13,885 nt of DNA. It comes from Schaalia odontolytica (lineage in GTDB: Bacteria > Actinomycetota > Actinomycetes > Actinomycetales > Actinomycetaceae). The stretch's first letter is position 1; each line of letters starts with the position of its first letter. The translations under genes and the position numbers were made by a program. The DNA lies in the NCBI GenBank assembly GCA_958415245.1, contig CATYYP010000015.1, forward strand, positions 1 to 13,885, in the 5' to 3' direction. This document shows, piece after piece, positions 1 through 13,885 of the stretch. Below the pieces are notes generated by a model. That model did no database searches and had not been told where the DNA came from. It worked only from the letters and a program-made list of their open reading frames with translations.

Positions 1-3000
1 GTCTTTGGCCTGTCGTCCTCGACCAAGCACGAGACGGTCAAGGAGCGCATCGAAACCTCGGTCGAGGCAGTGGTCCCCGGTGCGGACATCACCGACGTGC
101 GCGACTACACGCACGTGCTGGACGGTTTCGCGATCCAGGCCCCGGCCTCGTCCCTGGACGCCATCAAGGCGACCGAGGGCGTCAAGGCCGCGTTCATCGA
201 GCGCCACCACAAGCCCATGGTCGTCGAGGGCGACGCGGGCGCGCTGGGCGCCGAGGCCGTGGATCCTGCCCTGCAAAACGCCTCCTCCCTGGAGATGACG
301 CGTGCCAACCAGACCGCCCAGAAGGGTGATCGTCAGGTCGTCGAGGTCATCGACACGGGCATCGAGGCCACCCACCAGGCGTTCTCCGGCTCCATGGATG
401 GCGTCGACGTGCGCCTGAGCCAGGGGGACGTCGAGGCCCTCGTCGGCAAGCTGCCGCACGGCAAGACCGGCGCCTACCTCAACAGCAAGATCCCCTTCGT
501 CTTCGACTACGCGGACAACGACGCGGACGTGCTGCCCAAGTCCAGCAAGGACCTGTCGCACGGCACCCATGTCGCCGCGATCGCCGCCGCCAACGCGGCC
601 GACCTGCAGGGCACCGCGCCCCACGCGCAGATCATCGTCGCCAAGGTCGCCTCCGACAAGGATGGATCGATCCCCGACAACACTGTCCTGGCGGCCCTCG
701 ACGACGCGGTCGTGATCAAGCCCGACTCGATCAACCTCTCCCTCGGCGAGGACGCGGGTATGGGCACCGAGGCCGGAACCATGTACGCGGAGGTCTACAA
801 GAACCTCGCCAACGCGGGCGTGACCGTCAACGCCGCTGCGGGTAACTCCTACTCCAGCGCATACTCCAACTACAGCGGCAGAAACAAGCCGTTTGCTACC
901 GACCCCGACGCCGGCACGGTCTCCGAGCCCGGGTCCTACAGCTCGACCCTGGCCGTCGCTTCGGTCAACAACCAGGACGCCCTGCCCTACCTGACGGTGG
1001 GGGAGCGCCAGGTCGTCTACCGCAAGTCGCGCGGCCTGAAGGACGCCGTCGTGCCGAGCCTCCTCGACATCCCCGAGGCCACCTACACCCTCGTCTACGC
1101 GGGCATTGGTGACGCGGCGGCCCTCAGCAAGCTCGTCGCCGAGCACCCCGGGGACCTCTCCAAGGTCATCGTCCTCGAAGACCGCGGTGGCTCCGACAGT
1201 GCGACGGGTGCTGACATGACCCACGAGGCCAAGGTCAAGGGACTCACTCAACTGGACTCCAAGCCCGCCGCCCTCATTATCGGCGATTCCGAGACGGTTG
1301 AAAACCCGTACGTGGCCACGATCGAGGCCACCCACACGATGCCGACCGTGACCATCACGAAGAAGGAGAAGGACGCGCTTATCGAGGCCATCAAGGCCAG
1401 CGAGTCCGGCTCCATCACCATCTCCAACCCGCACGCGGGCCTCAAGCTCGCCTCGACCAACCCGTCGGTCTCCGACTTCACCTCGTGGGGCGTCACGCCC
1501 GACCTCAAGCTCAAGCCGGAGATCGCGGCCCCCGGCGGCAACATCGTCGCCGCCGTCCTCGGCAACACGTACCGCTCCATGTCGGGCACGTCCATGGCGA
1601 CCCCGCAGGTCGCGGGCATTGCCACGCTCGTGCGCCAGCGCGTCAACGACGACCCGGCATTCGCCGGCCTGTCGGAGGCGGACAAGGCAGCGATCGTCAC
1701 CACCCTCATGATGGGCACCGCCCACCCGCTGCTCGACATCGACCAGAACGACGGCACCTACTACTCGCCGCGCCGCGTGGGCGCCGGCCAGGTGGACGCC
1801 CTCGCAGCCACGACCACGACCGTCTACCCGAGCGTCGCGGGCGCGGAAAACCCGTGGCGTCCCAAGGCTGACCTCGGCGAGGGTACGAACGGGTGGACCT
1901 TCCAGGTGACCCTGACGAACATCTCCGACGCCGACCACACCTACACGCTGGGCGGCCAGGCGCTCTCCGAGATCGTCGAGGGTGGCCTCTTCACCGAGCA
2001 CTCCAAGAACTGGGCGGGGCAGGGCATCGACCTGACCTACTCCGCTGACTCGGTGACCGTGCCCGCCAAGGGCACCGCGACCGTGACCGTCACCGTGACC
2101 CCGCAGGCGGCCTTCGCCTCGTACGCGAATGAGAACGCTCCCAAGGGCACGTTCATCGACGGCGCCGTGACCTTCACGAGCGCTGACGGTCAGCCCGACC
2201 TGACCGTCCCCTACATGGGCTTCTACGGCTCCTGGGGCGCTCCCGCCGTCTTCGACGGCAAGTGGTACGACGGCACGACGAGCACCGCACACGCCTGCTC
2301 CTCGACCCTCATGAACCCCGCGACCGAGGTTCCCCTGGGTGCCCTGAACCCCCTCGTCGGACAGGAACTCGACGACGTGCGCGCGGTCGACCCCGCGTAC
2401 TTCATCATGTCCCGCTCTGCGCTGCCCGAGGCCCCCTCGCGCATCCTGCCGCGCACCTGCCTGCTGCGTAACTCGCCGAAGGTGACCTACACCTACACGA
2501 ACGAGGCCGGCGAGGTGGTGCGTGAGTACACCTTCGAGCGCGCCCGCAAGTCCCTGTTCAACTACCATGCCAGCAAGGTCGAGCCCATCGAAAGCCAGGA
2601 GGGCAACAACCCGGTTTTCGACGGCTTCGACAAGGACGGCAAGGAGCTGCCCGCAGGCCGCTACAAGCTGACGATCGACGCGGCCTCGGTCGCGCCCTCG
2701 AGCGTTGCCTCGCGGCTGACCTGGGACTTCACCCTGGACACCCAGGCGCCCGTCATCTCCAACCTGACGGTGACCGGCGAGGGCGACGAGCGTGTCGTGT
2801 CCTTCGACGTCACCGACAACTCGCCGCTGGCCGGCATCGCCTTCTCCGAATCCCCGACCTCGCGTCGCTACTACGACGAGAAGGAGGCCGTGGGCGCGAA
2901 CCGTCAGGCCGACGGCACCTACGCCAAGCACTACGAGATTAAGTGGGCCGACCTCATCGACCGCGCGGACTCCTCGGATCCGGCGACAGCCTACCTGTTC

Positions 3001-6000
3001 GCCTGGGACTGGGGGAAGAACCAGGCCCGCCAGGTGATCCGCTTCAGCACGATCCCGATGACCTCCCTGACCCTCACCCCGCAGACCTCCGAGGTCGTCG
3101 CGGGCGAGACGGTCACGCTGAACCCCTCGTACGAGCCGGCGAACGCGAACGTCACCGACCTCGTCTGGACGTCCTCGAACGAGGCCGTGGCCACCGTGAA
3201 CGACAACGGTGAGGTCCGCACCCTGGCCGCCGGCGAGGCGACGATCACCGCGACCGACGCGTCCCAGCCGACCCTGTCGGCCAGCGCCCAGATCCGCGTG
3301 CGCACGATCTCCGAGGATGCGGGCATCGAGCTCGCCGACACCCAGGTGAGCGTCAAGGTGGGAGAGACCGCTCCCGTGAAGGCTTACCTGGCGCCTTCGC
3401 TGAAGGACCGCGCGGTGACGTGGAGCGTGGAGCCGGCCGACCTGGCAACGGTCACCGCCGACACCGACACGCGCAAGGCGACCCTGACCGCCGGCGATCA
3501 CGCGGGTTTGGGCACGCTGACCGCCACCGTCACCACCGAGGCTGGCGCTACTAAGACCGCGTCCATCCCCGTCACGGTGCGCTCCGCCGATGCCGACGAC
3601 TTCGAGATCAGCGAGGACGGCGTCCTTGTGAAGTACAAGGGCTCGGCCACCGAGGTCACCCTGCCCGACACCGTGACCTCCATCGGCGAGCGCGCCTTCG
3701 CGAGCTCCACCGTGGAGCACGTGACGATCCCCGCCTCGGTGCGTTCGATCGGCATGGAGGCCTTCATGTACAGCTCGCTGAAGAAGATCACCTTCGTCGA
3801 CGACGAGGCCCACCCGGCCCAGCTGACCACGATCGCCGACCGCGCGTTCGCGAACACGAGCCTGGAGGCCATCGAACTGCCGCGTTCCGTGGTGACGATC
3901 GGTGCGGAGGTCTTCGACTACAACTCGGCGCTCACCACGATCAAGCTGGGCCCCAATGTTGCTGCCGACTCGGTGACCTCGGGCTACGCCGAGACCGCCG
4001 CGCTGACCAGCGTCGAGGTCGACCCCGCGAACCCGAATTATGAGAGCGTGGACGGAGTCCTCTACTCCAAGGACCACTCTCGCCTGATCCTGTACCCGGC
4101 CGCGAAGAATCCCGGCGGCGCATACACGGTCCTGGACGGGGTAGCGACGATCGCGCCTAAGGCCTTCCAGAAGGCGGGCATCACCTCCGTGACGCTGCCC
4201 GACAGCCTGCGCGAGATCAAGGACGAGGCTTTCCGCCTCTCCGCGCTCACCGCCGTGACCCTGCCCGAGAAGTTCGAGACGGTCGGCACCTGTGCCTTCT
4301 GCTCCGCCGACAAGCTCGCGAGCATCGACCTGGGCGGCACGATCTCCCTGGGCGGCAGCGCGTTTGAGTCCACGAGCGCCAAGGCCGGCGTCAACTTCCG
4401 ACCCGAGCTCGGCCGCCTGACCACGATCGGCGACTTCGCGTTTAGCCGCACGGCACAGTCCTTGGTGTCCCTGCCGGACTCCGTGACCACGGTCGGCGAG
4501 CAGGCATTCTCGGAGAGCACGGCCCTGACCTCGTTCCACATCGGAGCGGGCGTCACCTCCTTCGCCGAGACCGCCCTGTACAACGACCGCAAGATCGCGA
4601 CGCTGACCGTTGCGGATGGCAACCCGGTGTACTCGGCCGAGCACAACGTCCTGTACCGCAAGGCGGACGACGGCCTGCACCTGATGCTGTCCCCGGCCGC
4701 CAACACGCTCACCGACTACACGGTGCGCGCGGGCACGGTCGAGATCGGCGCGACGGCATTCGCCAACAACAAGACGCTCACCCGCGTCGTCCTGCCCGAC
4801 GGCCTCAAGGTCATCGGTGACGACGCCTTCGCGGGTACCACGGCCCTCACCGAGCTCGTCATCCCCGAGTCGGTCGAGCGTTCGAGCGGCGTCACCGGAA
4901 ACTCCCTGGAGCTCGTCGAGTACGGCTCCAAGGTGACCTCGATCCGCATGGAAGGCAGCTGGGTTCCCATGCCTCGTCGCATCGTCGTGCGTGGCGGTGT
5001 GGACGGCTCCTTCGTGTACGACGGTCGCCCGACGAACGGACGCCGCCAGAGCGCCTACTTCGGCGAGGGCATGACCCGCGTGTCCTTCGGCGTGGACGTT
5101 CCGCGCGTCCTCGTCCTGCCCTCCACGCTCACCCGACTCGACCTCGAGCCTGAGCTGAGCGACGAGAAGAAGGACGACACCCACGTCTACGTCGCCGCAG
5201 CCGAGGGCGAGCCGGCGTGGAACGTCGCCAAGGACGCCCTCGAGGCGGCCGGCATCGACCCCTCCCACCTGCACACCTACACGGGCGCGTCGATGACCCT
5301 GGTGGGTGCCAACATTAACGAGGCCGGGGGAAGCTACACGTACACGGGCGAGGTCGGCGCGTCGGTCGACGTGACCGCGACGGTTGCCGGTGGCATCGCC
5401 GGCACACAGCAGGTCCGAGCCGTGCAGATCGGCGCAGACGGCACCGAGACCCTCGTGCGCGACTGGACGACGGTGACGGACGGCGGGGACCGAGCTGCGG
5501 CCTCCTCCGTGACTTTCCCGTGGACCCCGTCCGCCGCCGATGTGAGCCTGCGCGTCCAGGTGCGCGATGCCTCGTACCTGACGAGCAGCCTCATGATCAA
5601 GCTCCCGGGTACCCCGGAGCCGACACCGGCGCCCGAGCCGACGCCCGCGCCCTCACCGGATCCGACGCCCGCTCCGACCCCGGCTCCGAGCGTGGATCCG
5701 ATCCCGGCACCTGAGCCGACTCCGGCACCTGCTCCGCAGGAAGGCCGGTGGGTGAGTGACTCTGTTGGCTGGTGGTACCGCTACTCCGACGGGACCTACC
5801 CGGTGAGCCAGACGCTGCAGATCGGAGGCTCCACCTATCGCTTCGGTGCGGATGGCTACATGCGCACCGGCTGGGCGAGTGAGGATGGTGCGTGGTACTT
5901 CCACAATCCGTCTGGCGCTCAGGCGAGCGGCTGGGTGAAGGATGGTGCGTCCTGGTATTACCTGGATCCGGCGACGGGGCGAATGGTCACCGGTTGGCTG

Positions 6001-6240
6001 CTTGATGGTCCGACCTGGTACTACCTGACGCCCGGTAGTGGCGCGATGGCGACCGGTTGGGTGAAGGACGGCTCGTCCTGGTACTTCATGGCCCCCAGCG
6101 GCGCGTTGACGACCGGTTGGCTGAAGGATGGTGGCTCCTGGTACTACCTGAGCACGGACTCGGGCGCGATGTACACGGGAGGTCACTGGATAGGCTGGAA
6201 GTGGTACTACTTCAACGAATCGGGACAGCTCGTCGGCTGA
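1..6240 (+). CDS. Cell-wall-associated S8 subtilase with BspA-type LRR domain and wall-binding repeats (5'-truncated by window)
   Basis: A secreted surface serine endopeptidase of the lactocepin/C5a-peptidase type, open from base 1 with 2079 residues visible. Alignment with the 9467 paralogue at VRDY suggests about 58 residues (signal peptide and start of the propeptide) are missing. Domains by visible residue: I9 propeptide 1-75; S8 domain about 95-610 with Asp118 (VIDTG), His187 (SHGTHVA), oxyanion Asn282 (AAAGN) and Ser531 (SGTSMATP); a PA-like insert about 325-475 between Asn and Ser; Fn3-like domain 610-755 (ends in PYMGFYGSWGAP); Ig-like region to 1015; Big_2 1018-1102; another Ig-like domain to 1198; BspA-type LRRs 1201-1752; Ig-like module 1760-1869; Pro-rich linker 1871-1912; aromatic repeats 1915-2079. 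All catalytic residues are present, so it is probably active. Family and domain order are clear from motifs; the substrate is unknown. There are four cysteines and no LPXTG tail. A strong hairpin terminator follows, so it probably ends its transcription unit. Confidence 0.93.
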   Translation, partial: VFGLSSSTKHETVKERIETSVEAVVPGADITDVRDYTHVLDGFAIQAPASSLDAIKATEGVKAAFIERHHKPMVVEGDAGALGAEAVDPALQNASSLEMTRANQTAQKGDRQVVEVIDTGIEATHQAFSGSMDGVDVRLSQGDVEALVGKLPHGKTGAYLNSKIPFVFDYADNDADVLPKSSKDLSHGTHVAAIAAANAADLQGTAPHAQIIVAKVASDKDGSIPDNTVLAALDDAVVIKPDSINLSLGEDAGMGTEAGTMYAEVYKNLANAGVTVNAAAGNSYSSAYSNYSGRNKPFATDPDAGTVSEPGSYSSTLAVASVNNQDALPYLTVGERQVVYRKSRGLKDAVVPSLLDIPEATYTLVYAGIGDAAALSKLVAEHPGDLSKVIVLEDRGGSDSATGADMTHEAKVKGLTQLDSKPAALIIGDSETVENPYVATIEATHTMPTVTITKKEKDALIEAIKASESGSITISNPHAGLKLASTNPSVSDFTSWGVTPDLKLKPEIAAPGGNIVAAVLGNTYRSMSGTSMATPQVAGIATLVRQRVNDDPAFAGLSEADKAAIVTTLMMGTAHPLLDIDQNDGTYYSPRRVGAGQVDALAATTTTVYPSVAGAENPWRPKADLGEGTNGWTFQVTLTNISDADHTYTLGGQALSEIVEGGLFTEHSKNWAGQGIDLTYSADSVTVPAKGTATVTVTVTPQAAFASYANENAPKGTFIDGAVTFTSADGQPDLTVPYMGFYGSWGAPAVFDGKWYDGTTSTAHACSSTLMNPATEVPLGALNPLVGQELDDVRAVDPAYFIMSRSALPEAPSRILPRTCLLRNSPKVTYTYTNEAGEVVREYTFERARKSLFNYHASKVEPIESQEGNNPVFDGFDKDGKELPAGRYKLTIDAASVAPSSVASRLTWDFTLDTQAPVISNLTVTGEGDERVVSFDVTDNSPLAGIAFSESPTSRRYYDEKEAVGANRQADGTYAKHYEIKWADLIDRADSSDPATAYLFAWDWGKNQARQVIRFSTIPMTSLTLTPQTSEVVAGETVTLNPSYEPANANVTDLVWTSSNEAVATVNDNGEVRTLAAGEATITATDASQPTLSASAQIRVRTISEDAGIELADTQVSVKVGETAPVKAYLAPSLKDRAVTWSVEPADLATVTADTDTRKATLTAGDHAGLGTLTATVTTEAGATKTASIPVTVRSADADDFEISEDGVLVKYKGSATEVTLPDTVTSIGERAFASSTVEHVTIPASVRSIGMEAFMYSSLKKITFVDDEAHPAQLTTIADRAFANTSLEAIELPRSVVTIGAEVFDYNSALTTIKLGPNVAADSVTSGYAETAALTSVEVDPANPNYESVDGVLYSKDHSRLILYPAAKNPGGAYTVLDGVATIAPKAFQKAGITSVTLPDSLREIKDEAFRLSALTAVTLPEKFETVGTCAFCSADKLASIDLGGTISLGGSAFESTSAKAGVNFRPELGRLTTIGDFAFSRTAQSLVSLPDSVTTVGEQAFSESTALTSFHIGAGVTSFAETALYNDRKIATLTVADGNPVYSAEHNVLYRKADDGLHLMLSPAANTLTDYTVRAGTVEIGATAFANNKTLTRVVLPDGLKVIGDDAFAGTTALTELVIPESVERSSGVTGNSLELVEYGSKVTSIRMEGSWVPMPRRIVVRGGVDGSFVYDGRPTNGRRQSAYFGEGMTRVSFGVDVPRVLVLPSTLTRLDLEPELSDEKKDDTHVYVAAAEGEPAWNVAKDALEAAGIDPSHLHTYTGASMTLVGANINEAGGSYTYTGEVGASVDVTATVAGGIAGTQQVRAVQIGADGTETLVRDWTTVTDGGDRAAASSVTFPWTPSAADVSLRVQVRDASYLTSSLMIKLPGTPEPTPAPEPTPAPSPDPTPAPTPAPSVDPIPAPEPTPAPAPQEGRWVSDSVGWWYRYSDGTYPVSQTLQIGGSTYRFGADGYMRTGWASEDGAWYFHNPSGAQASGWVKDGASWYYLDPATGRMVTGWLLDGPTWYYLTPGSGAMATGWVKDGSSWYFMAPSGALTTGWLKDGGSWYYLSTDSGAMYTGGHWIGWKWYYFNESGQLVG
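3052..3306 (+). other. Big_2 (bacterial Ig-like) domain of the active subtilase
   Basis: Residues 1018-1102 of the first protein show the Big_2 pattern: IPMTSLTLTP opening, W(T/S)SSNEAVATV core, then GEVRTLAAGEATITAT. The paralogous copy is at 12668-12922. Big_2 domains usually act as surface spacers or adhesive modules; here it separates the protease from the LRR domain. A second, more divergent Ig-like domain follows directly to about 3594 (core VTWSVEPADLATV). Confidence 0.85.
3601..5256 (+). repeat. BspA-type (LRR_5) leucine-rich repeat domain in the active subtilase
   Basis: About 550 residues of degenerate units of 20-25 residues following the BspA pattern, with I(G/A)..AF at each turn followed by L..(V/I).(L/I)P, for example TSIGERAFASSTVEHVTIP. 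Insertions reading NPNYESVDGVLYSKD and NPVYSAEHNVLYRK break the array at regular places, as is usual in this family. Family members bind host matrix proteins or other bacteria; that role is inference here. The final part (IVVRGG...YDGRPTNGR...PRVLVLPSTL) is shared with the second gene. The array contains a CAFC pair at 4291-4302 that the second gene lacks. Confidence 0.88.
5611..5736 (+). repeat. Pro/Thr/Ala-rich linker (PEPTPAP-type repeats)
   Basis: About 42 residues built of near-repeats of PEPTPAP, SPDPTPAP and SVDPIPAP join the last Ig-like module to the wall-binding repeats. Such linkers typically span the peptidoglycan and hold the upstream domains away from the wall. The third gene has only a very short equivalent (APAPTPK) and the second has essentially none (SAPAQ), so the large protein has the longest stalk. 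Confidence 0.85.
5743..6237 (+). repeat. Aromatic cell-wall-binding repeats of the active subtilase
   Basis: The C-terminal 165 residues hold about seven units of roughly 20 residues with the pattern (A/T)GW(V/L).DG.SWYYL.P.SG.M, opening with a specialised unit (GWWYRYSDGTYP...YRFGADGYMRTGW). This is the CW_binding_1/choline-binding repeat type, which attaches proteins non-covalently to wall polymers. The array runs to within a few residues of the stop and no membrane anchor follows. Asp codons here are 6 GAT to 4 GAC, unlike the matching arrays at 8834-9268 and 12944-13378, where GAC strongly dominates. Confidence 0.9.
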
Positions 6241-6259: not shown

Positions 6260-6292
6260 GCCCGCGCCCCGGAGACTCTCCGGGGCGCGGGC
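6260..6292 (+). terminator. GC-rich hairpin terminator after the active subtilase
   Basis: A perfect inverted repeat begins 20 bases after the stop codon at 6238-6240. The left arm is at 6260-6274 and the right arm at 6278-6292, with a three-base loop (ACT) and 15 GC-dominated pairs. Only a weak T-rich stretch (catttgttc) follows. Stem strength and position support termination; the poor T tract leaves efficiency uncertain. Confidence 0.8.
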
Positions 6293-6652: not shown

Positions 6653-9271
6653 ATGTCCCATCGAAAGTCAACGGTGCTGGCGTTCGCGCTTGCCGGTGCC
6701 CTGTCCCTGACCGTGGTCAGCGTGCCAGCCGCGTTCGCGGCTGATGCGGGTGCCGTCGGTCCGGTGAACGCAGCCGCCCCGCTGCATGCCAATGCCGATG
6801 GGTTCACCATCGACGCCGACGGCGTGCTTGTGTCCTACACCGGAACAGCGACGGATGTGCGCATCCCCGAGGGTGTGACCGAGATCAGCACGAATGCCTT
6901 CACTGACACGCAGCTGACGAGTCTGTGGATCCCCGCGAGCGTGCGAGCGATCGACGACAACGCCTTCTCGGGCCAGCCACTGACCCAGGTCACCTTCCAG
7001 GATGACGATGCGCATCCCTCGCAGCTGGAGACGCTTGGAGAACGCGTCTTCGCATACACCCCGCTCGAACACGTCACGCTGCCTCGCTCTCTCAAGACGG
7101 CGGGCCTCGAAACCTTCAGCGACATGGGGAAACTGCGCTCCGTCCACGTCGGCCCGAACGTCCAGGCCGACGGTCTTTTCGCTGCATTCGCGCGTACTCC
7201 GCTCCTGGAGAGCATCGAGGTTGACGCGGCCAACCAGAACTACCAGAGCGTCGAAGGGGTCCTGTACACGAAGGGGCTGACCCACCTGGCGACCTACCCG
7301 CAGGCGAAGAACGCCGGCGGGCACTACACGGTTTCCGAGGGGACCACGACCATCGACGAGGGCGCTTTCTCCTCCGCGCAGATCACCTCCCTGGCTTTGC
7401 CGTCGAGCCTGCACCACGTGAACAGGGGTGCGTTCGTGGGGTCGCAGATTACCTCCCTGAGCCTGCCCGACGGCTTCGAGTCCATGGACGACACGGCCTT
7501 TTGGTACATGCCCAAGCTGCAGCGAGTCGACCTGGGCGGCACGAAGGCGCTGACGGATAGTGCCTTCCGCTACGATAAGGCGCTCGCCGAGGTGAATTTC
7601 CGCCCCGACCTGAATCGCCTGACCGACGTTGGCGACTACGCCTTCGACGGTTCGGCTCTCGTCTCTGTGTCGTTGCCCAACTCGGTAACCTCGATCGGTA
7701 AGGGCGCGTTCGCTGGGAACGCTGCGCTCCGGTCTGTGCATCTGGGCTCCGGCCTCACCTCTATCGGTGAATCCGCATTCGTGGACGCGAGCAACCTCGC
7801 CTCGCTGAGCGTCGACCCCACCAACTCGGCGTTCTCCGTCGAGGATGGCGTCCTGTACAGCAAGGGCGACACCGGGCGCACCCTGGTCCTGTACCTGCCC
7901 ACGAACGGGGCCTCCGAATTCACGGTTCCCGACGGCACGGTCGCTATCGCTGACACCGCTTTCGCGCACAACACGTCCCTGCGTCGCGTCGTCCTGCCCG
8001 AGGGGCTCACGACCATCGGCTACGGCGCCTTCGATGGCGACGCGAACCTCGCCGATCTCGTCATCCCCGACTCGGTCACGGTCGCCCGAGGCCTCGTCAA
8101 CAACGGACTCGACACGATCGAACTGGGGTCGCAGGTCACGGAACTGTGGATGACCCCGCGCGAAACCCCCACCCCGCGCCACATCATCGTGCGCGGCGGC
8201 AACAACGGCGAGTTCTACTACGAGGGCAAGGCCTCCAACGGGCGTCCCGACAGCGCCTTCTTCGGCGAGGGGATGACCATCTTCACCTTCTGGTTCGATA
8301 CGCCGCGCGTCCTGGTCCTGCCCTCGACCGTGCAGGAGATCAAGCTCGCAGCCGACATGGCACAGGACCTCAAGGATGGCACCGAAATCTACGTCGCCGC
8401 CCCCAAGGGGTCGAAGGCCTGGACGCTCACCGAAACCGCGATGAAGGACGCCGGCTACAACACGGCCAACCTCTTCGAGTACACCCGCCCGCAGGTCGCA
8501 GTGTCGGGCGACGGAATCACCGAGGCCGGGCCCGGATACACGCTCACCACCTCCGTGGGTACGCCGATGACCGTGAACGTCTCCGCTCAGGGCGGCACTC
8601 TGGGTGGGCGCCAGATGCGTGTCGTGCAGATCGGCGGGGATGGTACCGAAACGGTTCTCCAGGACTGGGACTCGATGCAGGGCAGCTCGGATGAGAGCGC
8701 GTCCACCGACTCCTACACCTGGACCCCGACCAGCGCCGACGTCGTCCTGCGCCTCGACGTGCGCCAGGATCCCCACGTCGTCACCTCGGCGACCGTGACC
8801 GTCAAGGCCGCCTCCGACTCCGCTCCCGCTCAGGGCACGTGGACGTGGGGCGCTCGCGGCTGGTGGTACCGCTACGTGGATGGCACCTACCCCTCGAACA
8901 CGGCCAAGACCATCGACGGCCAGGTGTACCGCTTCGACGCGGACGGCTACATGCGTACCGGCTGGGTCTTCGAACGGGGCTCGTGGTACTACCACGCGCT
9001 GTCCGGCGCTCAGGCCACCGGCTGGGTCCTTGACGGCGTCTCCTGGTACTACCTGACCCCCGGAAGTGGCCAGATGGCCACGGGATGGGTCGAAGACGGT
9101 TCGCACTGGTACTACCTGAACCCCACCAACGGGAAGATGAAGACCGGATGGCACTACGAGGACGGCTCCTGGTACTACCTCAAGCCCGGCAGCGGCCAGA
9201 TGGCGACCGGACGTCTGTGGATCGTGTGGAAGTACTACCGATTCGCCGACAACGGCAAGTTGATCCGCTGA
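6653..9271 (+). CDS. Secreted BspA-type leucine-rich repeat surface protein with wall-binding repeats
   Basis: A probable surface adhesin or binding protein of 872 residues with no catalytic domain. The signal peptide is residues 1-29 (MSHRKS start, hydrophobic core, VPAAFA cleavage motif). BspA-type LRR_5 repeats occupy about 50-600, a short Ig-like module about 615-722 (VVQIGGDGTETVLQDW), and aromatic wall-binding repeats 728-872. From residue 50 to the end it parallels the C-terminal half of the first gene, including LRR insertions (NYQSVEGVLYTKG) and the VRGGNNGEFYYEG segment. It lacks the protease, Fn3 and Big_2 parts. I see no cysteine. The start is supported by the AGAGGGGG site six bases upstream and the immediate signal peptide. 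A weak hairpin follows. The BspA family includes proteins binding fibronectin, fibrinogen or other bacteria; the ligand here is unknown. Confidence 0.92.
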   Translation: MSHRKSTVLAFALAGALSLTVVSVPAAFAADAGAVGPVNAAAPLHANADGFTIDADGVLVSYTGTATDVRIPEGVTEISTNAFTDTQLTSLWIPASVRAIDDNAFSGQPLTQVTFQDDDAHPSQLETLGERVFAYTPLEHVTLPRSLKTAGLETFSDMGKLRSVHVGPNVQADGLFAAFARTPLLESIEVDAANQNYQSVEGVLYTKGLTHLATYPQAKNAGGHYTVSEGTTTIDEGAFSSAQITSLALPSSLHHVNRGAFVGSQITSLSLPDGFESMDDTAFWYMPKLQRVDLGGTKALTDSAFRYDKALAEVNFRPDLNRLTDVGDYAFDGSALVSVSLPNSVTSIGKGAFAGNAALRSVHLGSGLTSIGESAFVDASNLASLSVDPTNSAFSVEDGVLYSKGDTGRTLVLYLPTNGASEFTVPDGTVAIADTAFAHNTSLRRVVLPEGLTTIGYGAFDGDANLADLVIPDSVTVARGLVNNGLDTIELGSQVTELWMTPRETPTPRHIIVRGGNNGEFYYEGKASNGRPDSAFFGEGMTIFTFWFDTPRVLVLPSTVQEIKLAADMAQDLKDGTEIYVAAPKGSKAWTLTETAMKDAGYNTANLFEYTRPQVAVSGDGITEAGPGYTLTTSVGTPMTVNVSAQGGTLGGRQMRVVQIGGDGTETVLQDWDSMQGSSDESASTDSYTWTPTSADVVLRLDVRQDPHVVTSATVTVKAASDSAPAQGTWTWGARGWWYRYVDGTYPSNTAKTIDGQVYRFDADGYMRTGWVFERGSWYYHALSGAQATGWVLDGVSWYYLTPGSGQMATGWVEDGSHWYYLNPTNGKMKTGWHYEDGSWYYLKPGSGQMATGRLWIVWKYYRFADNGKLIR
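6800..8455 (+). repeat. BspA-type (LRR_5) leucine-rich repeat domain of the LRR-only protein
   Basis: Degenerate units of 20-25 residues with the I(G/D)..AF...L..V.LP turn, for example TSIGKGAFAGNAALRSVHLG. The array has the same order of units and insertions as 3601-5256, down to matching endings (PRVLVLPST). The two arrays therefore descend from one ancestral domain, not independent acquisitions. Confidence 0.88.
8834..9268 (+). repeat. Aromatic cell-wall-binding repeats of the LRR-only protein
   Basis: About six units: an opening GWWYRYVDGTYP...YRFDADGYMRTGW, then repeated SWYYLTPGSGQMATGW-type units, ending in YRFADNGKLIR just before the stop. These are CW_binding_1/choline-binding-type repeats. 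Asp codons are 7 GAC to 1 GAT. There is no LPXTG motif or membrane anchor. Confidence 0.9.
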
Positions 9272-9466: not shown

Positions 9467-12400
9467 ATGTTCCACTACCGACGCGCAGCGCTGACGCTCA
9501 TAGCGGCCGGCGCCCTCGCGCTCACCACGATCGGCGTGCCCGCCGCCTTCGCGGACGAGGCCGACGCCACCCAAGCCTTGTCGCCCCAGCAGGGCACGAA
9601 CGACTCCCCGGCGACGATTATCGTCCAGCTCGAGGCGGGCGACGCCGGGGCCGACCACGCCGCGTACTACGCGCAGATGAAGAAACGCATCGGCGAGGCC
9701 GTGGCCGCGGCTCTCCCGGGGGCGACCATCTCTGACGTGCGCGACTACCACCACGCCTTTGACGGCTTTGCGATCCAGGCGCCCGCCTCGACGCTCGGTG
9801 TCATCAAGGCGACGTCCGGCGTCACGGGCGCCTTCCTCGATGGTAGCCATACGTTCGCCACGGATGACGAGATCTCCGGAGGCTATCGCGCCGTCGCAGG
9901 GGGCGACGAGTCGGATGCAGCCACCGGTGCCGCAGCGCAGATGATGCGGGCCGACGGCCTTGCCCAGAAGGGCCAGGGCCAGGTCATCGAGCTCATCGAT
10001 AGCGGCATCGATACCTCGCACCAGGCTTTTGCCGGCGACATGGATGCAGCGTCGCTGCGCCTCACGCAGGACTCGGTGGCCTCGCTCGCCTCGCAGCTGG
10101 GTGCCGGCAAGGGTGGCGTGTGGGTGAGCCCCAAGATCCCCTTTGCCTACGACTACGGTGATGGGGACACCGACGTGCTGGCCACGGAGGAAGGAGGCGA
10201 CGGAGCCCGCAGTGCCAACAACCAGGGCACGCACGTCGCAGCCCTCGCCGCGGCGAACAGCGGACAGTTCGCGGGCGCAGCGCCCCAGGCTCAGCTCATC
10301 GTCGCGAAGGTGACGACCGATCCGGGCAACCAGGCGAGCGACGTGAACCTCCTGGCCGCGCTCGACGACGCGATGGTCCTCAAGCCCGACGTCGTCTCGG
10401 TCTCCTTCTCCAAGACCGAAGGATTCACGGACGACGCAGAGTCCCTCTACTCCCACGTCTATGATGCCCTCGGCGCACAGGGCTCGACCGTCTACGCGCC
10501 CGCCGGTGACGTCGAGAGCTACGGTCGAGCGGACGATCCTGACAATGGTGCGCTCGGCTTCCCCGCAGCCTTCTCCTCAACCCTCGCCGTGGCCTCGGTC
10601 AACGAGCAGGAGGTCATGGGTGCCCTCACCTTCGGTGATCACCTGATCGGCTACCGGCCCCTGGGTCGCATGAGCAAGGGAGACGGCCCTGGCTTCGACA
10701 CCCTCGCCGAGGGCACGTACCGCGTGGTCTACGCAGGCAACGGCTCGAGCGAAGACCTGACCAAGCACCTCGGAACGGACTATGGGGACCTGTCGCGCAC
10801 GATCCTCCTCGAGGAGCTGGGCGGCAATGACTCGCGCGGTAACTCGGTGGAGGTCAAGCACAAGATCAAGGCCCTCAAGTCCCTGACCAGCAAGCCCGCC
10901 GGCGTTCTGCTCGGACACTGGTACGACAGCGAGACTCCCATCAAGTGGTCGGTCGATCGCTGGTTCAACCTGCCGATGGCGACCATCACGACCTCGGACC
11001 GCAACCGCCTCTATGACGCCATCAAGGCTTCGGAGAGCGGATCGATCGAGGTGAACGTCTCTCCCTCCACGATCCTCACCGTGCCCGAGGGCATCCACGC
11101 CTCCGACTTCTCCTCCACGGGTGTGACCCCCGACCTGCGGCTCAAGCCTGAGGTCGCGGCCCCCGGCGGCGCGGTCATGTCCGCGACCCCCGGCAACTAC
11201 TACGATCGACTGTCCGGCACGGCCGAGGCCTCGGCTCAGGCCGGTGCGGTCGCTGCCCTCGTGCGTCAGCGCGTGGCAACCGATCCGGTGTTTGCGGCCC
11301 TGTCCGCTTCCGAGAAGAATGCCGTGGTCACGAACCTCCTGATGGGCACCGCCCGTCCGATCGTGGACGCGGAGCAGAATAATGGCACTTTCTACTCGCC
11401 GCGCCGCGTGGGTGCAGGCCTGGTGGACGCCCAGGGCGCCACGACCTCGTCCGTGTACCCGAGCGTCGTCGGGGCAGCGGATCCTTCGCGTCCCAAGGCC
11501 GATTTGGGTGACGGAACCTCCGGGTGGACCTTCCAGGTGACCCTGACGAACGTCTCCGACACCGCCCACACCTACACGCTGGGCGGACAGGCACTGTCCG
11601 AAAAGGTCGCGAGCATGCTGTTCACGCACCACTCGACGAACTGGGCGGGACAGGGCATCGACCTAACCTTCTCCTCGGACTCGGTGACCGTGCCCGCCAA
11701 GGGAACTGCCAGCGTGACCGTCACCGTGACCCCGCGCGAGGCCTTCGCCTCGTACGCTGCGGAGAACACGCCCAAGGGCACATTCATCGACGGTGCCGTC
11801 ACCTTCACGAGCGCCGACGGCGCTCCGAACCTCACCGTCCCCTACGTGGGCTTCTACGGCTCCTGGGGTGCGCCTGCGATCTTCGACCTGGTCACCCCGG
11901 ACAACCACATCAGCGGATACGGATCGACGTTCATGAATGGGCGCCTGCCGTTTGGGCAGCAGAGCCCCTTCGACGTCGAGGACGAGAGGATGATCAACGG
12001 TGTCAACCCCGACCTCCTCGTCATCTCGCGCTCCACGCACGAGGACGCCCGGACCGTCGTCACCCCGGGCACGGTGCTGCTGCGCTCCGTTCCCTCGCTG
12101 ACCTACACCTTTAGGAACGAGGCCGGGGAGACGATCCGCTCCTTCACGTGCGGGCGCGCGGATCGGTCCATCTACGACGTGCACACGCGCTCGCCACGCA
12201 CGGTCGAGGACTCCGCGCCGGGCTGCGACCCCTGGTTCAACGGTTACGCGCCGGACGGCACCGAGCTGCCGGATGGACGCTACACGCTGACGATCGAGGC
12301 CTCGACCTACGGCCCGTCGCCCGCGACCCAGTCCATCAGCTACAGCATCATCCTGGACACGCAGGCTCCCGTCATCTCCAACGTGACGGTTTTGGGTGAG

Positions 12401-13381
12401 GGCAAGGACCGCGTCCTGTCCTTTGACGCCACCGACTCCTCGGCCATCGCCGGGGTCGGCTTCTCGGCCACCGAGGACGGCAAGGTCGTCGAGCGCGGCG
12501 CCGAGGTCTACCCGACCGGGCGCAGCGAGGACGGTCTGGTCCACATCCACTTCGACGTGCCGCTGAAGGACGCCCTGACGAGCATCGGCGGTGACCCGTC
12601 GACGATCTACCTGCACGTGTGGGACTGGCCGGTCAACGGGGCAATGGCGCCGGTCGCCCTCAAGGCGATCCCCATGACGTCGCTCGCGTTGTCGCGCGAG
12701 TCCGCCACGCTCGGTGTGGGGGAGACCCTCACACTGAGCGCCACTCACGAGCCCGCGGACGCGAACGTGACCGGCGTCGTCTGGTCCTCCTCGGACGAGG
12801 CCGTGGCGACTGTCAGTGCGACCGGCGAGGTGCGCGCGGTGGGCGCGGGCGACGCGACCATCACCGTCTCCGACCCGACGCAGCCGAGCGTGTCCGCCAG
12901 CGCCACCATCCACGTCAGCGCCCCCGCGCCCACCCCCAAGGCCGGCACCTGGAAGCGGGATGGCCGCGGCTGGTGGTACCGCTACGAGGACGGCACGTAC
13001 CCCGCCGACACGACCCTCGCTATCGACGGAGCGACGTACCGCTTCGACGCGCGCGGCTACATGCGCACCGGATGGGTGAGGGAACAGGGCTCGTGGTACT
13101 ACCACAACGCATCGGGCGCGCAGGCGAGCGGCTGGGTCCTCGACGGGATCTCCTGGTACTACCTAGACCCGGCCACGGGCGTCATGGCGACCGGCTGGGT
13201 CAAGGACGGTGACACCTGGTACTACCTCAATCCCACCACCGGCAAGATGATGACGGGGTGGCTCAAGGACGGCGGTGCCTGGTACTACCTGAAGACAGGA
13301 AGCGGCGCGATGGCCACGGGTCGCCTGCGTATCTTCTGGACGTGGTACACCTTCTCTGAGACGGGGCAGCTGATCAGCTAG
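9467..13381 (+). CDS. Secreted subtilase-like pseudoprotease with Fn3, Big_2 and wall-binding repeats
   Basis: 1304 residues, paralogous to the first gene but predicted inactive. Signal peptide 1-29 (MFHYRR start, VPAAFA end); I9 propeptide about 48-130; S8 domain about 155-665 with PA-like insert; Fn3-like domain 668-805 (PYVGFYGSWGAP); Ig-like region; Big_2 1068-1152; wall-binding repeats 1160-1304. Asp178 (LIDSG) is kept, but catalytic His is Gln253 (NNQGTHVA), oxyanion Asn is Asp348 (APAGD) and catalytic Ser is Ala586 (SGTAEASA). The frame is intact, so selection appears to keep a non-catalytic protein. It lacks the LRR domain. An in-frame ATG at 9323 lies inside the upstream hairpin and would put 48 non-signal residues before the signal peptide, so 9467 is preferred; a modest GAAGAAAG site lies ten bases upstream. 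Two cysteines (12149, 12224) may form a disulfide. Role unknown: decoy, binding scaffold or regulator are possibilities. Confidence 0.92.
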   Translation: MFHYRRAALTLIAAGALALTTIGVPAAFADEADATQALSPQQGTNDSPATIIVQLEAGDAGADHAAYYAQMKKRIGEAVAAALPGATISDVRDYHHAFDGFAIQAPASTLGVIKATSGVTGAFLDGSHTFATDDEISGGYRAVAGGDESDAATGAAAQMMRADGLAQKGQGQVIELIDSGIDTSHQAFAGDMDAASLRLTQDSVASLASQLGAGKGGVWVSPKIPFAYDYGDGDTDVLATEEGGDGARSANNQGTHVAALAAANSGQFAGAAPQAQLIVAKVTTDPGNQASDVNLLAALDDAMVLKPDVVSVSFSKTEGFTDDAESLYSHVYDALGAQGSTVYAPAGDVESYGRADDPDNGALGFPAAFSSTLAVASVNEQEVMGALTFGDHLIGYRPLGRMSKGDGPGFDTLAEGTYRVVYAGNGSSEDLTKHLGTDYGDLSRTILLEELGGNDSRGNSVEVKHKIKALKSLTSKPAGVLLGHWYDSETPIKWSVDRWFNLPMATITTSDRNRLYDAIKASESGSIEVNVSPSTILTVPEGIHASDFSSTGVTPDLRLKPEVAAPGGAVMSATPGNYYDRLSGTAEASAQAGAVAALVRQRVATDPVFAALSASEKNAVVTNLLMGTARPIVDAEQNNGTFYSPRRVGAGLVDAQGATTSSVYPSVVGAADPSRPKADLGDGTSGWTFQVTLTNVSDTAHTYTLGGQALSEKVASMLFTHHSTNWAGQGIDLTFSSDSVTVPAKGTASVTVTVTPREAFASYAAENTPKGTFIDGAVTFTSADGAPNLTVPYVGFYGSWGAPAIFDLVTPDNHISGYGSTFMNGRLPFGQQSPFDVEDERMINGVNPDLLVISRSTHEDARTVVTPGTVLLRSVPSLTYTFRNEAGETIRSFTCGRADRSIYDVHTRSPRTVEDSAPGCDPWFNGYAPDGTELPDGRYTLTIEASTYGPSPATQSISYSIILDTQAPVISNVTVLGEGKDRVLSFDATDSSAIAGVGFSATEDGKVVERGAEVYPTGRSEDGLVHIHFDVPLKDALTSIGGDPSTIYLHVWDWPVNGAMAPVALKAIPMTSLALSRESATLGVGETLTLSATHEPADANVTGVVWSSSDEAVATVSATGEVRAVGAGDATITVSDPTQPSVSASATIHVSAPAPTPKAGTWKRDGRGWWYRYEDGTYPADTTLAIDGATYRFDARGYMRTGWVREQGSWYYHNASGAQASGWVLDGISWYYLDPATGVMATGWVKDGDTWYYLNPTTGKMMTGWLKDGGAWYYLKTGSGAMATGRLRIFWTWYTFSETGQLIS
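12668..12922 (+). other. Big_2 domain of the pseudoprotease
   Basis: Residues 1068-1152 carry the Big_2 pattern IPMTSLALSRES, then WSSSDEAVATVSATGEVRAVGAGDATITV. It aligns along its whole length with 3052-3306. In this protein it leads directly through a very short Pro linker to the wall-binding repeats; in the large paralogue it leads into a further Ig-like domain and the LRRs. Confidence 0.85.
12944..13378 (+). repeat. Aromatic cell-wall-binding repeats of the pseudoprotease
   Basis: About six units with the same opening module (GWWYRYEDGTYP...YRFDARGYMRTGW), followed by SWYYLDPATGVMATGW-type units and a final WYTFSETGQLIS. These are CW_binding_1/choline-binding-type repeats. Asp codons are 9 GAC to 1 GAT. 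Confidence 0.9.
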
Positions 13382-13403: not shown

Positions 13404-13444
13404 CAGGCCCGCACACCCTGCTACATGTGGGATGTGCGGGCCTG
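13404..13444 (+). terminator. Hairpin terminator after the pseudoprotease gene
   Basis: The perfect 12-bp arms CAGGCCCGCACA (13404-13415) and TGTGCGGGCCTG (13433-13444) begin 22 bases after the stop. Inside, CCC (13416-13418) and GGG (13429-13431) can extend the stem past one bulged A. No clear T tract follows. Position and stem strength support a terminator. Confidence 0.75.
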
Positions 13445-13633
13445 ACATCTGTCAAAGGAGGCAGGCGCCAAAATTCCCAGGGTTTTTTCAGGTTGTCTTG
13501 TCGTTGTCGCAAGGTTTGCTGTTTACACTGAATGTCATCACAAGGGAATACGGCACGGACCATGAGGGTCCGGGACATGCCGACGAGACTTTTTCGAGGA
13601 GCTTTCTGGGAAAACTTGCACTGTGTTGATGGG

Positions 13634-13675
13634 ATAAGCCGAGGGGTCGACCGCAAGGTCGGCCCCTCGGCTTAT
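13634..13675 (+). terminator. Long hairpin with GCAA tetraloop, possible terminator of an unidentified transcript
   Basis: The 19-base arms at 13634-13652 and 13657-13675 are fully complementary except for one position that would form a G.U pair in RNA. They are closed by the stable GNRA-type loop GCAA. Because the arms start and end with A/T (ATAAGCC / GGCTTAT), it could terminate transcripts from either direction. It lies about 250 bases after the previous stop and beyond that gene's own terminator, so it either backs up that terminator or ends a separate short transcript. Confidence 0.6.
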
Positions 13676-13696
13676 ATTCGGGCCTGCACAAAATGT

Positions 13697-13827: not shown

Positions 13828-13885
13828 ATGTCCCATCACTCCACCCCGGCACTCGCGCTCGCCGCAGCCCTCGCCCTGACCGGCG
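13828..13885 (+). CDS. Start of a further secreted protein (3'-truncated by window)
   Basis: Only 19 codons are visible: MSHHSTPALALAAALALTG. This reads as the start of a signal peptide and begins like the second gene (MSHRKSTVLAFALAGALSLT), so it is probably another exported member of the cluster. A weak AAGTGAG site (13815-13821) lies six bases before the ATG; an in-frame TTG at 13825 is possible but less likely. No mature domain is visible, so the product cannot be named. Confidence 0.65.
   Translation, partial: MSHHSTPALALAAALALTG

Follow-up and report, generated by a model that had tools for sequence, protein, structure and literature searches.

Gene C, the subject of this report, lies at positions 9467..13381 of a 13,885-nucleotide stretch of Schaalia odontolytica DNA (GCA_958415245.1, contig CATYYP010000015.1; hereafter the window) and encodes a secreted, wall-binding pseudo-subtilase of 1304 amino acids; all features described below are on the plus strand. 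It is an intact S8 protein of the C5a-peptidase/SpyCEP type that retains the catalytic Asp and has replaced the catalytic His, the oxyanion Asn and the catalytic Ser. Judged from its sequence, gene C may well specify a pseudo-cell-envelope-proteinase, bound to the wall, whose task is to bind protein ligands and not to cut them, a reading to which we assign a probability of roughly 0.55. On this view, the nucleophile of a C5a-peptidase/SpyCEP-type protein would have disappeared in an old ancestor, and the protein would have been retained since then for a non-catalytic task. Cell-envelope proteinases are known as enzymes, and bacteria of the Schaalia/Actinomyces type are known from the human mouth. 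If the reading is right, a long-lived clade has kept this surface machine without the cut, beside active-type sisters, and the scaffold works alone as a binding protein. Intact and dead sisters on one wall would then provide a natural comparison by which recognition could be distinguished from cleavage in C5a-peptidase-type proteins, as well as a second bacterial setting, after Clostridioides difficile spore germination, for studying the roles of pseudo-subtilases.

The original prediction for this DNA held that three of four active-site residues are replaced and the Asp kept, and reading gene C for the Asp-His-Ser triad and the oxyanion Asn confirmed this (D178, Q253, D348, A586). Asp178 (9998..10000) is the retained catalytic Asp, Gln253 (10223..10225) replaces the catalytic His, Asp348 (10508..10510) replaces the oxyanion Asn, and Ala586 and Glu587 (11222..11227) replace the catalytic Ser and the Met after it. 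Measured against the codons of gene A, an active-type paralogue, the changes CAC to CAG, AAC to GAC and TCC to GCC each involve a single base. The three replaced-site codons are identical in six of the seven gene C orthologues, the window included. Five of the six orthologues fetched therefore carry the same substitutions; in the sixth, from genome G166, the His site is Glu, the oxyanion Asn is kept and the Ser site is Ala (D-E-N-A). Loci carrying an orthologue include those of Schaalia sp. ORNL0103 (L003, 97%), the Xylanimonas cellulosilytica 352_XCEL record (L001, 96%), the Sanguibacter keddieii 250_SKED record (L002, 84%), Actinomyces sp. HPA0247 (L005, 83%) and Actinomyces bouchesdurhonensis (L004, 83%). 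The L001 and L002 loci are Schaalia-type, and the Xylanimonas and Sanguibacter names on those records are probably wrong. In S8 enzymes, loss of the Ser and the His should abolish proteolysis. Lacking both, gene C should be unable to cut peptide bonds and hence to free itself of its I9 propeptide; unless a neighbour does the cleaving, it may remain a zymogen permanently.

The loss of active-site residues proved real, yet its extent had been underestimated: it marks a whole clade rather than this one pair of paralogues. Catalytic sites were read in matches with at least about 40% identity to the S8 domain of gene C, and in some distant ones, from 213 genomes. A protein search with gene C gave 1704 proteins over threshold, of which the best 120 were read, P0001 itself and the paralogue being excluded from the counts. 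The His position, readable in 118, held Gln in 117 and Glu in one; the Ser position, also readable in 118, held no Ser and mostly Ala, with five Asp and one Val. The listed records mostly represent one or a few sequences, and four of those in this search each represent over 800, the largest of them 2840. When a second gene lacking the Ser, from L005, served as the query, the best 120 of 2056 relatives all retained His, all had Asp or Glu for the oxyanion Asn and all had Ala or Gly for Ser. No Ser was seen at the readable positions among the listed relatives of gene C or of this second group. As a control, the best 120 of 4702 relatives of gene D, another active-type paralogue (query from L003), comprised 119 with D-H-N-S and one that lacks its N-terminal part and has the N and S, so that Ser was present in 120 of 120. 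Across five genomes, 47 of the 52 S8 stretches read (of 107 matches) have all four residues; the other five are two small proteins with Gly for Asp, two gene C orthologues and one protein of the second Ser-less kind. The automatic label "S8 family serine peptidase" may here cover proteins without the catalytic Ser, as in P0182, which is so named and has Ala.

The Ser-less proteins form one clade, and inactivation of the active site therefore looks like an old, single event. The alignment comprised the window, loci L036-L119 and 15 of the 120 listed gene C relatives; it left out duplicates (L056-L070, L071-L075 and one copy of a gene split between L086 and L087), matches below 180 bits and both fragments of a TAG-interrupted S8 gene (L112). 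The trees further left out L076, P0096, the truncated L090 gene and the columns surrounding the four sites. In a tree of 91 rows, the 24 Ser-less rows fall on one side of a single branch with a Shimodaira-Hasegawa-like approximate likelihood-ratio test (SH-aLRT) value of 99 and a change count of 1, and they stay together in a 79-row tree on 338 core columns (SH-aLRT 87). A careful tree of 41 chosen rows placed 23 Ser-less proteins in one clade with support of 100/100. Genes A and D are sister to this clade in the 91-row tree (SH-aLRT 94), a placement made less sure by rooting on long-branch distant subtilases. Within the clade, one branch (100/100) keeps the His, has Asp or Glu for the Asn and Ala or Gly for the Ser, and has lost the PA insert; the other, supported at only 88/89, has Gln or Glu for the His, mostly Ala for the Ser, and an Asn that is kept or, in the group of gene C, is Asp. 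Because both branches share the loss of Ser, sequence comparison suggests that Ser was probably lost first. Members of the second Ser-less group, which retain the His, have Asp or Glu for Asn and Gly or Ala for Ser, and have lost the PA insert, were located at L005 94-3531, L086 12659-16090 and L109 5961-9398, and in L005 the next gene encodes a leucine-rich-repeat (LRR)-like wall protein.

Conservation of the active-site loss in orthologues is accompanied by purifying selection on the protein as a whole. Ratios of nonsynonymous to synonymous substitution (dN/dS) were computed by NG86 from 15 pairs of six sequences for gene C, 10 pairs for A and 6 pairs for D. In the S8 part they are far below 1 and much like those of the intact-type paralogues (C 0.084-0.164, A 0.078-0.178, D 0.086-0.220), and no stop was found in the gene C copies of six other genomes fetched, one of which is cut by a contig end. 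Replacement of three of four active-site residues, each by one base from the codons of A, is what a decaying pseudogene caught early might display, but we regard decay as extremely improbable, since the dN/dS of gene C resembles that of the intact-type paralogues, the six other copies are free of stops and the Ser-less proteins are one old clade. Decay elsewhere also looks different, with an in-frame TAG in S8 copies of G001 and G159. The shared substitutions, the low dN/dS and the stop-free orthologues thus support the earlier view of gene C as a maintained pseudoprotease. The TAG-containing S8 genes, L112 (G001:C14:21495-22946) and L090 (G159:C1:1250038-1250379), reflect either decay or sequencing error among paralogues.

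Changes in the cleft go beyond the four sites. The altered segment after the Ser, which had been pointed out from the window alone, is clade-wide: Met587Glu (3 Gln in 103 rows) and Pro590Ala/Gly are nearly fixed, as are Ala345Pro, Tyr219Trp, Ile260Leu and the loss of Gly315 (Ser, Ala or Met instead) and of Asn311. Distant outgroup rows and exact duplicates were left out of this tabulation; among 62 non-redundant rows, residue 587 is Glu in 59 and Gln in 3. Residues 587 and 348 are taken here to be equivalent to Met222 and Asn155 of subtilisin BPN'. Sedolisins have Glu and Asp in place of His and Asn. The change of Asn to Asp and of His to Gln or Glu recalls these enzymes, and with Glu587 nearly fixed in the clade, gene C could be imagined to hydrolyse through a rebuilt, somewhat sedolisin-like acidic site (Asp178, Asp348, Glu587). 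We consider this highly improbable: sedolisins (S53) require a nucleophilic Ser, and gene C has A586 at a position that varies between Ala, Gly, Asp and Val. A speculative and rather unlikely proposal is that the old active site was rebuilt as a conserved acidic ligand pocket that senses a cation, an amine or a peptide N-terminus, formed by Asp178, Asp348 and Glu587 in the group of gene C and by Asp178, His253, Asp348 and Glu587 in the sister group. The wall-anchored array of pseudo-proteinases would then act as receptors that tune neighbouring active-type proteinases or LRR proteins.

The rest of the protein has the make-up of a cell-envelope proteinase, and the earlier description of gene C as full length, in frame and complete in its modules was confirmed. 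A signal peptide (residues 1-29, 9467..9553, cleavage after AFA placed by eye) precedes an I9-like propeptide (residues about 46-124, 9602..9838), which is assigned from its predicted fold and from I9 Pfam matches in relatives. The Peptidase_S8 domain (residues 169-651, 9971..11419) is matched by PF00082 along its entire length, at 104.2 bits (cut-off 21.8) and over model positions 1-288 of 288; it contains a PA-like insert (residues about 381-534, 10607..11068) that matches PA domains. An fn3_5 domain (residues 687-794, 11525..11848) is the part of gene C closest to paralogues A and D, and completes the S8, PA insert and fn3_5 architecture of cell-envelope proteinases. It is followed by a Big_2 domain found by profile match (residues 1070-1138, 12674..12880) and by choline-binding repeats as the wall anchor (12926..13372), which exceed the cut-offs of PF19127 (79 bits; cut-off 27) and PF01473 (59.5 bits; cut-off 20.5). 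Gene C has no LPXTG wall sorting signal; its C-terminus consists of the choline-binding repeats and ends ...GQLIS. LicD genes occur in seven of seven genomes searched, which is compatible with phosphocholine on the wall and makes binding of gene C to it possible. The protein would accordingly be displayed on phosphocholine-bearing wall polymers.

Among solved structures, C5a peptidase and SpyCEP come nearest to gene C in sequence and in fold, although the whole-model fits are loose (template-modelling score about 0.42). Streptococcal cell-envelope proteinases are the best PDB matches in both sequence and fold, and ScpA/ScpB, SpyCEP/ScpC and lactocepin PrtP share with gene C the S8 domain with PA insert, Fn3-type domains, secretion and surface anchoring. 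Known cell-envelope proteinases are anchored by LPXTG. Unlike C5a peptidase, SpyCEP and PrtP, gene C lacks the Ser, the His and the oxyanion Asn, carries choline-binding repeats rather than LPXTG, and has a Big_2 domain in addition. The best NCBIfam match over its S8 and Fn3 regions is NF040553 (190.1 bits, residues 168-800; the cut-off of 1400 is not reached), the SGO_0316/SGO_0317 family LPXTG serine peptidase, from which it again differs by the missing LPXTG and the replaced active-site residues. Pneumococcal PspA and PspC share its choline-binding repeats, and only this part (residue 1132 on) matches them, below cut-offs. Our literature searches found no report of a secreted, choline-anchored pseudo-cell-envelope-proteinase clade.

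Two observations on the streptococcal enzymes bear on what such a protein might do. One study reports that a C-terminal piece of SpyCEP has a similar Michaelis constant with 2200-fold lower activity (PMC10624844), and another locates an exosite of ScpA on its Fn2 domain (PMC9464890). Since binding in SpyCEP and ScpA lies partly outside the active site, a wall-displayed binding protein is favoured for gene C. Surfaces away from the active site (Fn3, PA and the outer S8 face) would bind proteins of the kind that the active-type neighbours handle, and gene C might serve as a surface receptor, an adhesin or a capture partner on the wall that it shares with A and D. In keeping with this explanation, the N-terminal half of the S8 domain, which holds the Asp, His and Asn sites, has diverged (C shares 47-51% identity with A and D, which share 72% with each other), while fn3_5 has stayed close (72-80% among C, A and D).

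Several results weigh against a binding role. The cleft of the pseudo clade is only weakly conserved above background (0.63 versus 0.91 bits, p 0.06; rows clustered at 98.5%), whereas that of the active clade is strongly so (0.25 versus 0.98 bits, p 1e-7). The old cleft can therefore not be called the binding site itself; together with the low dN/dS, its weak conservation indicates that constraint has mostly gone from the catalytic machinery and still acts on the protein. The catalytic cores have low confidence in both predicted models. The part before the S8 domain is looser in C, with dN/dS of 0.160-0.369 versus 0.071-0.281 in A and 0.196-0.306 in D; a doubtful leader upstream of the ATG at 9467 is included in some of the pairs. 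The C-terminal half of the S8 domain, where the Ser site lies, shows no special divergence (C versus A/D 55-57%, A versus D 60%). Finally, G151, G152 and G159 (L092, L096 and L089) hold A, B and D with no C, which implies that C is not needed by its neighbours and speaks against an essential role for them. The same array lacking C between B and D amounts to natural presence and absence at one site.

In the window, gene A (1..6240, 5' end outside) encodes an active-type paralogue with an S8 domain (DHNS), fn3_5, Big_2, LRR and choline-binding repeats, and gene B (6653..9271) an LRR and choline-binding-repeat protein with 45% identity to the second half of A. Gene A thus joins a protease to an LRR part, and C and B resemble its two halves set apart, B being without the protease. 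A second active-type paralogue, gene D, begins at the end of the window (13828..13885; start inferred from the L005 protein start, remainder outside) and is complete in L003 at 14074-18150. An active-type paralogue beside the pseudoprotease, as originally proposed, is there, but there are two such neighbours, A and D, and not one. The order A, B, C, D is also that of L001 and L003; C adjoins D in G001, G003 and G005, and C lies between B and D in the window and three genomes. In G005 a second gene without the Ser and one more LRR-like gene lie between A and B. The G166 array runs from A through an 870-residue choline-binding-repeat gene, the C-type gene (D-E-N-A), a gene of the second Ser-less kind and two wall-binding genes to a D-type S8 gene, the repeats of which are in another frame. 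The G004 contig ends within C, and the G002 contig ends 1.7 kb past it. A terminator-like hairpin follows A (6260..6292, z -5.5) and two strong hairpins separate C from D (13405..13676, z -5.6 and -6.6), so that C and D are probably separate transcripts; a weaker hairpin (z -2.9) lies between B and C.

Gene order fits a binding protein and a regulator alike, and the main rival to ligand binding is that gene C regulates A, D or both in the manner of CspC/CspA of C. difficile. Pseudo-subtilases are already known from that system, so this kind of protein is a known one. Like gene C, CspC and CspA are subtilisin-type pseudoproteases beside an active relative, and CspC, as PMC12880746 and PMC6636752 describe it, keeps the Asp, has Thr for His and Gly for Ser, and has a prodomain reported to stay unprocessed (PMC6636752). 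According to PMC12880746, the linked active protease CspB becomes activated, directly or indirectly, through the CspC:CspA pseudoprotease heterodimer, and it is this parallel, with the adjacency of pseudo and active-type S8 genes in both cases (C beside D in G001, G003 and G005), that recommends a regulator. On balance we hold the analogy to be tentative and a good deal less probable than ligand binding. CspC and CspA, which carry a jelly-roll insert, are proteins of the spore, whereas the product of gene C is secreted to the wall and combines PA, Fn3 and choline-binding modules; wall anchoring and a multidomain build are common to C, A and D. The NCBIfam CspC/CspBA models NF040808 and NF040809 score only 21.6 and 35.4 bits on gene C, far under their cut-offs of 675 and 1250. 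The hairpins give no indication of a transcript shared with D, and the three genomes with A, B and D lack C altogether.

A further alternative, which we think improbable, is that the tethered I9 propeptide or the zymogen-like form of gene C serves as an inhibitor or decoy, acting in trans on A and D or else on inhibitors and antibodies of the host. The propeptide is retained and is folded in the predicted model (predicted local distance difference test about 70-89 from residue 50 on), and the fold of C is near enough to its active-type paralogues that inhibitors or antibodies directed at A and D could be absorbed. The propeptide of C is about as near to those of A and D (47-49% identity) as that of A is to that of D (50%), which speaks neither for nor against a cross-acting propeptide. 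Against this alternative, the stretch linking propeptide and S8 domain in C has just 24-29% identity to its counterparts in A and D, versus 52% between A and D. A wall-displayed binding protein remains our preferred explanation.

Two other kinds of record were encountered among the matches. P0096 and P0097 are database proteins in which B and C are fused across the DNA between them and the S8 core is largely absent; they occur on 8 and 7 contigs and are probably assembly artefacts. Small subtilase genes of about 390-510 codons number 12 in G003 and 14 in G005 (e.g., L041, L042, L046 and L049), many of them clustered, and have unusual motifs, two of those in G003 carrying Gly for the catalytic Asp.

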